The notes below the pieces were generated by a model that saw nothing but the letters and a program-made list of their open reading frames with translations, was not told the origin of the DNA and did not search any database. From Thermoanaerobacterium aotearoense (GTDB taxonomy: Bacteria > Bacillota > Thermoanaerobacteria > Thermoanaerobacterales > Thermoanaerobacteraceae): a stretch of DNA of 64,000 bases. Shown here piece by piece: positions 1,928 to 60,835 of the stretch. Both the position numbers and the translations under genes were made by a program. Within the stretch, counting starts at the first letter, position 1; every line of letters starts with the position of its first letter. The stretch is from positions 372,001 through 436,000 of the forward strand of contig NZ_CP047602.1 in NCBI RefSeq assembly GCF_009905255.1, in the 5' to 3' direction.

Positions 1928-2920
1928 TCAAAGCAATGCCATTAAAAAGATTGCATAGAAAATGATGCCTGACATCAAAACAAATGGGTTTAAACTTTTT
2001 TTGCTGGATGAATATAAAAGGCATATATATGACGATATAAGCGATAACATGGTTGTAAGCATAGTAAGCCCAGTCAAATGCCATTCTGTAAACATCATGC
2101 CTATGGCGACAGGCACAGATGATTGAAATACCATTGCCCCTGTTATGTTTAAAAGGGCAAGGGTATCTTTTTTTTGTCCCACCCATAAGACGGAGTTAAG
2201 CTTTTCTGGAAGCTCGGTTGCTATAGGCGTTATGATTAATGACAGTATGGCTGGGGGAATCCCTGCCATCGCAGATACTTGCTCTGTGTACTTTATAAAT
2301 ATGTGGGCGCCATAGGATATTCCCAAAAGTGAAAATATAAGCTGCAAAAGGATGAGATGTACAGTAGGCTTTGAATTAAAATGGGACGAGAAGTACAAAT
2401 TTTTTACATCATTTATGCTTTCATCATTAGATGAAAATGTGCGAATGACGTAAACGAAGTATGAAATAAGTATAGCAATTGATACAATGTTTTTGATATC
2501 TATGTAGTTATTCACTATGGAAGTGATGACGGCTAAAGAGTACATGATTATAAAATACGACATGTCCCTTTGAAATCCAGTCAGCGAAGGGGTTATTTTT
2601 AGAGATCTCTTGCGGAATAAAGCGTATATTACTGCAGAGGCGCCTGTGACAAAGAAGCCAAGTGTCGACAGCATGAAGGGAGCACCGACTATTGCACCAA
2701 CACCTATTTCTTCTGATGATTGGCCATTGTGAAAAATGATTGCAATTACAGGTATAATCGTCTCTGGCATCGCTGTTCCTACAGCAGCAAAAATGCTTCC
2801 AATTACTCCTTGATTTAAGTTGAACTTTTTGCCTAACCATTCTACGGCATTTGTAAAATAAGCACACGAAACCAATATAAAGGCCAGACTCATTAAAAGT
2901 ATGATTGTAAACAAAGCCAA
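1928..2920 (-). CDS. Sodium/calcium exchanger-family (CaCA) membrane protein
   Basis: 330 residues from a TTG start (2918-2920), with AAGGAG about 11 bases upstream on the minus strand. About ten hydrophobic segments are arranged in two halves, each with a CaCA alpha-repeat motif: GTAMPE at about 48-53 and ATELPE in the second half, where the Glu residues normally coordinate the cation. This supports a K+- or Na+-coupled Ca2+ (or other cation) antiporter in the cytoplasmic membrane. The hydrophilic loop between halves (residues about 150-175) is short. Convergent with the flavin reductase gene and divergent from the RNA/galT region. Ion specificity cannot be assigned. Confidence 0.85.
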   Translation of the reverse strand: MALFTIILLMSLAFILVSCAYFTNAVEWLGKKFNLNQGVIGSIFAAVGTAMPETIIPVIAIIFHNGQSSEEIGVGAIVGAPFMLSTLGFFVTGASAVIYALFRKRSLKITPSLTGFQRDMSYFIIMYSLAVITSIVNNYIDIKNIVSIAILISYFVYVIRTFSSNDESINDVKNLYFSSHFNSKPTVHLILLQLIFSLLGISYGAHIFIKYTEQVSAMAGIPPAILSLIITPIATELPEKLNSVLWVGQKKDTLALLNITGAMVFQSSVPVAIGMMFTEWHLTGLTMLTTMLSLISSYICLLYSSSKKSLNPFVLMSGIIFYAIFLMALL

Positions 2921-3036
2921 TATAAACAGCTCCTTTTATTTATGAATAAGCGTAAGACTACACTAAATTATAATTTGGAATGAGAGATTATATTCATGGA
3001 ATATCAGTTTAATAGTAGATTTAAGCAGCTAAATTT

Positions 3037-3067
3037 TTGTTTATTTTTTGAAAAATTATGCTATAAT
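3037..3067 (+). promoter_or_regulatory. Promoter of the candidate structured RNA
   Basis: An extended -10 element, TGCTATAAT, sits at 3059-3067 with a weak TTGTTT -35 at 3037-3042 (19-base spacing). The start would fall near 3074, just before the first stem of the RNA described next. Confidence 0.6.
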
Positions 3068-3073
3068 ATAAAT

Positions 3074-3196
3074 AGAGAGGCAGCCGTCCGCAAAATGCGG
3101 TTGCCCGGGAAACAGTTTAAAAGTTTTTAAACCGCTCTGGGGTTAGCAGGGAAGGTTATAAATGTATTAGGCACTCATTAGCTTGAGTGCTTTTTT
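3074..3196 (+). ncRNA. Candidate structured RNA or riboswitch, class not recognised
   Basis: About 120 bases lie between an extended -10 promoter and a strong intrinsic terminator (GCACTCA 3171-3177 / TGAGTGC 3184-3190, then T6). The interior is far more GC-rich than the surrounding intergenic DNA and can fold: GGCA/TGCC enclosing CCGC/GCGG (3079-3105), GTTTAAA/TTTAAAC (3115-3132), CCC/GGG around the latter, and a purine-rich single-stranded segment, GCAGGGAAGG, before the terminator. I do not recognise a T-box, SAM, TPP, FMN, cobalamin, lysine, glycine, c-di-GMP, fluoride, guanidine, Mn or 6S/SRP consensus. Because the terminator precedes a separate strong galT promoter, it may be a stand-alone sRNA or an attenuator that once governed galT. 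Confidence 0.5.
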
Positions 3197-3245
3197 GTTT
3201 GCTTCATTGAAATCATATATATTGCGATAGATTGTAAAAATTAGA

Positions 3246-3274
3246 TTGACATTTTGTATAAAAAAGTATATTAT
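3246..3274 (+). promoter_or_regulatory. galT operon promoter
   Basis: TTGACA (3246-3251), 17-base spacer, TATTAT (3269-3274): near-consensus vegetative promoter. The 5' leader begins around 3281 and carries a small hairpin GTGCA/TGCAC (about 3287-3302). Confidence 0.75.
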
Positions 3275-3379
3275 ATACTTAAGAAGTGCACTCGGTTGCA
3301 CATACTTATACTTAGTTAACATCTGATGTGTTGATTGGTTTTTTAATTGTGTTTTTTATTTTTTGATAAGGGTGATGGT

Positions 3380-4351
3380 ATGTCAGAGATTAGATATGAT
3401 ATTGTTACAGGCAAGATAGCAGTCATTTCCACTGAAAGAGGCAAAAGGCCTCACGATTTTAAGAAGGCAGATGTCATAAAGAATAGCGGAGTATGTCCAT
3501 TTTGTCCTGGAAATGAACCCATGACACCACCTACGCTTGTGGAGTTTCGTGGAGAAGACGGCATGTGGACATTGAGAGGTTTTAATAACAAGTTTGCAGC
3601 GTTTAAAAAAGATGCGGATGCGGCTAAGCATGGAAGTGAATTGTACAGGGCAGATGATGGGTACGGCGTAGCAGAGATTATCGTTGAAAGCCAGTATCAT
3701 GATATGACTTTGGGACAGATGGATTCAGAAGGCATTGAGAACATCATGAAGGCACTCATCTTAAGATACAGGGATATTGTGAAAGATGAGAAGATTAAGT
3801 ACGTTCAGATGTTTAAAAACTTTGGTGCAAACGGTGGTGCTTCCTTAGAGCATGGACATTGGCAAATTATGGGCGTATCATTTGTACCTGAGGTTTTGGA
3901 GAGAGAACTAAAAGGCGTTGAAAGGCATGAGGCAGAAACCGGGAGATGCCCTTACTGCCACATCATCGATGAAGAAATGAAAGAAAATGCAAGAATCGTT
4001 GCCGAAAATGACAGGTTTATAGTTATATGCCCTTATGCATCGCAATTTGCGTATGAATCGTGGATACTTCCTAAAAAACATGCCAAGGCTTTTAACGAGA
4101 TGGACGACGATGACATAAGAAGTCTTTCATCGCTACTTAAATCGCTTGTAAAGAAGTATGAAGACCTTTTTGACAATCCGCCGTACAATATAGTCATTCA
4201 TACAGTGCCACATCATGATAGACGCGATTTTCATTGGCATGTAGAAATATTGCCAAGGCTTACCACATTTGCAGGGTTTGAACTTGCAACAGGAGCGTAT
4301 ATAAATCCTACACCGCCAGAAGAAGCAGCATCAATCTTAAGGTTAGATTAA
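3380..4351 (+). CDS. galT: Galactose-1-phosphate uridylyltransferase
   Basis: 323 residues from ATG 3380; the frame is open back to a GTG at 3347, but AAGGGTG lies about 8 bases before 3380 and the protein aligns as GalT from MSEIRYD. It belongs to the short, HIT-superfamily GalT type of thermophiles: zinc CPFC near residue 39, GASLEHGHWQ with the HxH around residues 158-160 (the uridylylated histidine region), a second CPYC, and HWHVEILPR near the C-terminus. The enzyme exchanges UMP between UDP-glucose and galactose-1-phosphate in the Leloir pathway. It heads an operon with a maltokinase-like and a GT4 gene (spacing 18 bases, then overlap), an unusual set of neighbours for galT. Confidence 0.9.
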   Translation: MSEIRYDIVTGKIAVISTERGKRPHDFKKADVIKNSGVCPFCPGNEPMTPPTLVEFRGEDGMWTLRGFNNKFAAFKKDADAAKHGSELYRADDGYGVAEIIVESQYHDMTLGQMDSEGIENIMKALILRYRDIVKDEKIKYVQMFKNFGANGGASLEHGHWQIMGVSFVPEVLERELKGVERHEAETGRCPYCHIIDEEMKENARIVAENDRFIVICPYASQFAYESWILPKKHAKAFNEMDDDDIRSLSSLLKSLVKKYEDLFDNPPYNIVIHTVPHHDRRDFHWHVEILPRLTTFAGFELATGAYINPTPPEEAASILRLD

Positions 4352-60572: not shown

Positions 60573-60835
60573 AAATAAAAGATTTTTCGATGATCAGGAA
60601 TAGTAGCTTAAGCGATTAATACAAGCGAGTCAGGGATGGTGTGAGCCTGATTATTATAGCTTTAGCGAATGGGCCTGTGAGATGCGAGGTGAAGTGTAGT
60701 AGCCGAGCCGGTAAACACCGTTATATGTGATGCACATGTTAGTGTGCTTAGAGATAAGACATATTGTCTTAAGAAGGGTGGCACCGTGGAAGCATAGCCT
60801 TTCGCCCCTACATTAGGGGTGGAAGGCTTTTTAAT
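60573..60835 (+). promoter_or_regulatory. Tryptophan T-box leader
   Basis: A long structured leader with AGGGTGGCACCG (60775-60786), the T-box bulge that pairs with uncharged tRNA acceptor ends. In stem I, the specifier loop reads GCGAA-TGG-GCC, with TGG (Trp) at 60670-60672. The terminator AGCCTTTCGCCCCTA / TAGGGGTGGAAGGCT (60796-60829) is followed by TTTTTAAT; the T-box element can pair with its left arm as antiterminator. It controls the trpP gene that begins 31 bases downstream, so uncharged tRNA-Trp should switch transport on. Confidence 0.9.

Follow-up and report, generated by a model that had tools for sequence, protein, structure and literature searches.

The structured RNA encoded upstream of galT in Thermoanaerobacterium aotearoense is very probably what remains of a chromosomal type I toxin-antitoxin module with a toxin of the BsrG/TxpA (Hol_Tox) kind. 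It corresponds to the antitoxin's 5' part; the toxin gene, which close relatives retain, has been deleted. The RNA lies at 3074-3196 of the window, the whole stretch of 64,000 nucleotides that was analysed. Comparison with relatives establishes the homology, the deletion and an empty site in one relative. The segment is most likely a promoter-bearing relic that is probably transcribed and has no target of its own. Its features and those of its surroundings are:

2990..3235, no strand: insertion between the exchanger gene and galT, approximate extent, absent in the relative G004 (alignment with the intergenic region of G004)
3040..3067, + strand: putative antitoxin promoter, -35-like TTTATT at 3040-3045 and extended -10 TGC-TATAAT at 3059-3067 (from the sequence)
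3074..3157, + strand: presumed remainder of the antitoxin RNA, its 5' part, with a start near 3074 deduced from the -10
3079..3105, + strand: 5' hairpin GGCAGCCGU / GCGGUUGCC, the best conserved part (fold; conservation against orthologues)
3108..3128, + strand: variable A/T-rich middle stem (fold; differs among copies)
3130..3157, + strand: damaged hairpin, counterpart of the one that intact copies carry in the 3' part of either RNA (folds of 19 copies)
3156..3157, no strand: deletion junction, 157 nt missing against G001 and G002 (pairwise alignments)
3169..3196, + strand: intrinsic terminator at which the shortened RNA would now end; intact relatives have it on the far side of the toxin promoter (terminator scan)
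3246..3274, + strand: galT promoter TTGACA-17-TATTAT, separate from the RNA and retained in G004 (promoter scan and comparison with G004)

The preliminary description of this DNA saw a structured RNA with its own promoter and terminator, followed by a separate promoter for galT and divergent from a cation exchanger. This layout was confirmed. The extended -10, paired GC-rich sequence and a terminator are all present at 3074-3196, the galT promoter lies behind the RNA, and Pfam places the divergent protein in the sodium/calcium-exchanger family (PF01699) and supports galT (PF01087 and PF02744). When the sequence is read by eye, the weak -35-like hexamer stands upstream of the extended -10 with a spacing of 16 nt. 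The automatic promoter scan did not report the promoter at 3059-3067, presumably because of its poor -35. The terminator consists of a stem of 9 pairs (3169-3192) with a T run behind it and was the sole one on both strands of 2500-3800, where shuffles lead one to expect 0.6. Directly behind the galT promoter, at 3287-3302, we also observed the palindrome GTGCACTCGGTTGCAC, which is probably a repressor operator for galT; G004 keeps all of it but the first base.

The GC content of 60-nt intervals over 3060-3139 was 0.47-0.50, compared with 0.17-0.37 in the flanking intergenic DNA. The predicted fold of the segment had an energy of -38.2 kcal/mol (z -2.0), and 8 of 200 shuffles folded equally well, which is a modest gain over chance. 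The case that the island is real is thus carried by its homologues.

The RNA had been described as fitting no recognised class, and indeed no Rfam family was assigned to it when the window was scanned at gathering scores. A permissive scan of 2950-3400 up to E = 10 gave four weak matches, the best with an E of 1.8 and all far under their gathering scores; aspC (E 9.8) and SpF51 (E 1.8) were discarded as resting mostly on the terminator. Rfam includes a RatA family, and neither this nor BsrG matched the window RNA up to E = 10. Elsewhere in the window, a T-box leader was found at 60581-60812 (+ strand) above its gathering score (104.1 bits).

A DNA search of 61 genomes detected relatives of the segment in seven of the eight other genomes of the genus Thermoanaerobacterium, which contributes nine genomes to the compared set including that of the window, as well as in three from the same order (G022 as a short match only). 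The match stops at about window position 3157 and restarts some 75-155 nt further on. The additional DNA of intact copies carries on the opposite strand a tiny frame, e.g. MMNTYQTLFLMIMFGMLIIAVLDFKRK, preceded by a good Shine-Dalgarno site and a separate promoter. At the same locus this toxin has 27 residues in three intact genomes and belongs to Pfam Hol_Tox (PF16935, the TxpA/BsrG kind); the readable toxins of the genus have 27-41 residues. All six antisense ORFs of relatives tested against PF16935 scored above the curated cut-off (E 6e-9 to 7e-13).

The toxin strand matched the Rfam BsrG model (RF01412) in all seven loci scanned, with E values up to 0.069 and none reaching the gathering score of 55 bits. 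The top match was found in copy C of the window's genome (L101) and covered the whole model with 49.4 bits (E 7e-9), and the other six loci scored 23.9-43.7 bits (E 3e-7 to 0.069). The Listeria rli28 model out-scored BsrG in bits at three of the seven loci, with worse E values (0.065-0.34) and below its own gathering score. RatA gave no match in seven related loci up to E = 1. Since the antisense frames hit Hol_Tox and the toxin strands match BsrG, the + strand RNA is most simply read as a type I antitoxin belonging to a BsrG/TxpA-like module. The sequence of the intact copies fits a convergent layout in which an antisense RNA with its own promoter would overlap the 3' end of the toxin mRNA.

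The same sequence was often present near the starts of both the toxin mRNA and the antitoxin, inverted in the DNA (L142 and 28 other Hol_Tox loci). In 18 of the 29 loci no more than 5 of 200 shuffles reached its best local match; in one of these 18, the fabZ copy, the match lies elsewhere, and a thirtieth locus was sought and not found. We do not regard the shared start as a novelty, as pairs from different loci often scored equally and the 5'-3' helix of the BsrG model would explain it.

In pairwise alignments against G001 and against G002, exactly 157 nt are absent from the window at 3156|3157, leaving a clean gap. This deletion removed the toxin frame, the Shine-Dalgarno site, the toxin promoter and the antisense region over them. 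Since the toxin gene is lacking, the window copy is, judged by its sequence, an antitoxin relic and not a working module. The preliminary description had proposed collecting homologues upstream of galT, and these proved to be common: eight of the nine genomes of the genus, the window's included, carry the RNA, and in all eight the insert is flanked by the exchanger gene and galT. The module is intact in G001, G002 and G005. In G007 there is a 14-nt deletion within the toxin. G003, G006 and G008 are without the Shine-Dalgarno site and promoter of the toxin, and in G003 and G006 the start codon is gone too. The window, without frame, Shine-Dalgarno site and promoter, stands at the end of this decay series. 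In G004 there is no insert, and the gap between the exchanger gene and galT measures 260 nt vs 459 nt in the window. Because G004 nevertheless keeps the galT promoter and the palindrome, the comparison assigns the RNA to the insert and not to a fixed part of galT control.

The 3074..3157 part together with the -10 is 83-88% identical to the seven same-locus orthologues. The first 46 aligned positions, which hold the -10 and the 5' hairpin, are identical at 43-46 of 46, and the remainder of the RNA at 36-41 of 50-52 positions (36-40 of 50-52 for the 3' half against the intact copies). Over the -10 and the antitoxin part, identity among the three intact copies is 94-96%, and that of the window to them is 83-87%. 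Compared with G002, the window is identical at 119/120 positions of the exchanger-side flank, 93% of the galT-side flank and 80% of the RNA; the corresponding values for G001 are 45/47, 83% and 85%. The flanks are therefore more alike between the window and G002 (99% and 93%) than the 3' half of the RNA is between the window and the intact copies, and plain neutral decay fits this poorly. In the comparisons with G001 and G003, the identity of the RNA is close to that of one of the flanks. Because the window resembles G002 much more closely in the exchanger flank than in the RNA, and its middle stem matches that of G003, alleles have probably recombined here instead of simply drifting apart.

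In intact copies the hairpin corresponding to 3130..3157 has the form AACCGC..GCGGTT, and its 3' arm is altered in the window. Three consensus pairs of this recognition stem (72-96, 74-94 and 75-93 of alignment A1) are broken in the window, against at most one in any other copy, and the hairpin is the most damaged of the 19 aligned copies. The damage probably weakens any action of the window RNA, since in bsrG/SR4, as described in PMC6562991, the first contact is made by the terminator loop of the antitoxin. Compensatory base changes among homologues, whose absence the preliminary description had named as a refutation, are present but slight: two-sided change was seen at one of 15 consensus pairs, and as the five copies that show it are related, this may be a single event. 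For this reason the case rests on the homology and the deletion.

Predicted pairing with toxin mRNAs was evaluated by the gain in cofolding energy, and RNAduplex energies were rejected as a test as shuffles scored as well as the real RNA. The 84-nt part of the window RNA gained -12.9 kcal/mol with the toxin mRNA of copy C (mean of 100 shuffles -3.8, minimum -9.3). The cognate pair of copy C gained -25.5, about twice as much. With the same-locus toxin mRNA of G002 the window part gained -8.9, within the shuffles (minimum -9.1 of 100), compared with -22.8 for the antitoxin of G002 with the same mRNA. Real RNA was thus separated from shuffles for the copy C toxin mRNA only, not for that of G002.

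The genome of the window contains three copies: the one described here, a second with the first half of the toxin gone, and the intact copy C (2368899). The second was found by the window-based DNA search and the third by a later search using an intact element. About 400 bases from copy C there is a c-di-AMP riboswitch (L101 2370-2493, - strand, 103.2 bits). A covariance model, R1, was trained on 19 copies, which it then recovered, and gave 33 matches in the 61 genomes; to the 3074..3157 part it matched with an E of 8.5e-17 in its own genome, the training set having included the window copy. We classified 31 of the 33 matches and left out two weak ones without a locus (G007:C7:84725 and G001:C1:1943112). 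The search was run with the stricter filters of Infernal, by which weaker relics may be missed; the L104 relic, seen in passing, is not among the matches.

Of the 31 classified matches, 28 belong to the nine genomes of the genus. The extended -10 and the 5' hairpin are kept in 21 of these and lacking in seven, and all 21 copies with the hairpin have TG, 1-2 bases and TATAAT. A readable toxin with a start and a Shine-Dalgarno site was present in 12 of the 21 (in two with a longer, altered C-terminus) and absent from nine, i.e. the window copy and eight others have kept promoter and RNA and lost the toxin frame. Conversely, 17 of the 18 Hol_Tox matches in the nine genomes are located at loci of this kind; the exception (G004, 180016) shows ATA in place of a start codon, and its hairpin looks decayed by eye. 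This pattern is one-way decay, as expected if losing the antitoxin first is costly. The same argument is in print for orz (PMC11264685).

The seven further copies have neither promoter nor hairpin, and some are reduced to little but the terminator hairpin, so modules can apparently decay to bare terminators. Behind a GGDEF-like gene, G002 (L108 1255-1291) and G003 (L109 1222-1259) retain mainly the shared terminator hairpin, and at this locus G008 (L036) has the whole module. At another locus of G004 (L098 1207-1280; G004:C1:2979406-2979479) a relic of the toxin promoter and 5' leader, followed by a similar terminator, directly precedes an epimerase-family frame (PF04321, PF01370), and this gene may have taken over the expression signals of the toxin. 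An orphan antitoxin of a different subtype was seen in G008 (L192; G008:C568:4298-4390), where the toxin frame is gone and part of the 5' leader is left.

These observations can be joined into one model. In intact relatives two convergent promoters would face each other, one giving the toxin mRNA and the other, on the opposite strand, an RNA antisense to the 3' part of that mRNA. In the window, the 157-nt deletion has taken the toxin gene, its Shine-Dalgarno site, its promoter and the overlying antisense sequence. What is left is the putative antitoxin promoter, the 5' hairpin and the damaged recognition hairpin, fused to the downstream terminator. The promoter presumably still fires and would give an RNA of about 120 nt without a cognate target. 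Such a relic could persist since losing the toxin first would be harmless and losing the antitoxin first would not.

The preliminary description had read the RNA as riboswitch-like, i.e. as a ligand-sensing leader for galT or the divergent exchanger, and several stems ahead of a terminator upstream of galT do give this appearance. However, the galT promoter is separate and lies downstream of the terminator, the same RNA occurs at unrelated loci (by eye, next to ABC transporter, GGDEF and FabZ genes), and in intact relatives it is antisense to the Hol_Tox toxin gene. G004 is without the insert, yet its galT promoter and palindrome persist, and the proposed tie to galT or the exchanger falls with this. 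The purine-rich unpaired segment noted before the terminator sits at the junction of the 157-nt deletion. Rfam, proposed as a check, left the window RNA without a family, while the intact homologues match BsrG weakly, below the gathering score and on the opposite strand. We consider a riboswitch extremely improbable. A false riboswitch candidate is hereby removed, and the case illustrates that the leftovers of a deletion (promoter, stems and terminator) can mimic a riboswitch in raw sequence. It is also very improbable that the RNA or its terminator was exapted for a new role such as insulating galT from upstream transcription. Relics elsewhere, namely those next to the GGDEF-like gene in G002 and G003, have been reduced almost to the terminator hairpin, and in G004 toxin-promoter and leader sequence with a terminator stands before the epimerase-family frame at its different locus, but directly upstream of the window RNA there is only the divergent exchanger and hence nothing obvious to insulate except the promoter of the RNA itself.

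The orphan antitoxin might instead be retained by selection as an anti-addiction RNA, acting in trans on the toxin mRNA of copy C or on incoming relatives. The copy C toxin is intact in the same genome, the predicted gain with its mRNA lies beyond all 100 shuffles, and the promoter and 5' hairpin are almost constant while the 3' half changes. Moreover, an orphan type I antitoxin can be expressed, as PMC11264685 describes for OrzP. Cross-repression of the intact copy by the window RNA is therefore possible. Nevertheless, copy C has its own intact antitoxin, and in S. aureus the SprF antitoxins neutralise their cognate SprG toxins with some heterologous cross-regulation (PMC6563280). Since the recognition hairpin is damaged, the pairing is half of the cognate one and the pairing with the G002 mRNA falls within shuffles, we rate a relic that is probably transcribed and without target above such a selected antitoxin, which seems unlikely. 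Extended to the genus, the nine orphans among 21 promoter-bearing copies could form a selected pool of guard RNAs that shed the toxin, kept promoter and 5' hairpin and diversified the 3' recognition part by recombination between copies, as a repertoire against related resident or incoming toxins; we regard this as rather improbable.

A search of a full-text literature collection for type I toxin-antitoxin systems in Thermoanaerobacterium and its relatives, judged by titles and the beginnings of abstracts, returned nothing on the subject. Toxin-less type I antitoxins are already known; what is new is a Thermoanaerobacterium member in this orphaned state. At one locus of a thermophilic genus, a BsrG/TxpA-type module offers a natural decay series from intact through partly deleted to antitoxin-only. 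The OrzP-type system has a toxin family and a phylum different from those of the Thermoanaerobacterium module.

The module resembles BsrG/SR4 (B. subtilis prophage SPbeta; RF01412) and TxpA/RatA in its small hydrophobic peptide of the Hol_Tox family and in a layout that would give an antisense RNA converging on the 3' end of the toxin mRNA, and the BsrG model matches the intact copy C along its full length. Unlike in these systems, the window copy is toxin-less with only the 5' part of the antitoxin, the module scores below the gathering score and RatA gives no match. With Fst/RNA II of plasmid pAD1, as presented in PMC7472228, it shares convergent promoters, a 3' hairpin on both strands and repeats in both RNAs, but the toxin family is different. 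The repeats of pAD1 are direct in the DNA and thus complementary between the RNAs (PMC7472228), whereas those of Thermoanaerobacterium are inverted, so that both RNAs begin alike. As in the OrzP-only loci of E. coli, the antitoxin gene remains after loss of the toxin frame; according to PMC11264685, orz is present alone in about 30% of E. coli genomes. There the RNA was detected by northern blot, whereas the window RNA is predicted from the sequence. Provided that the orphan RNAs of Thermoanaerobacterium are made and work in trans, they would represent the Gram-positive equivalent of OrzP.
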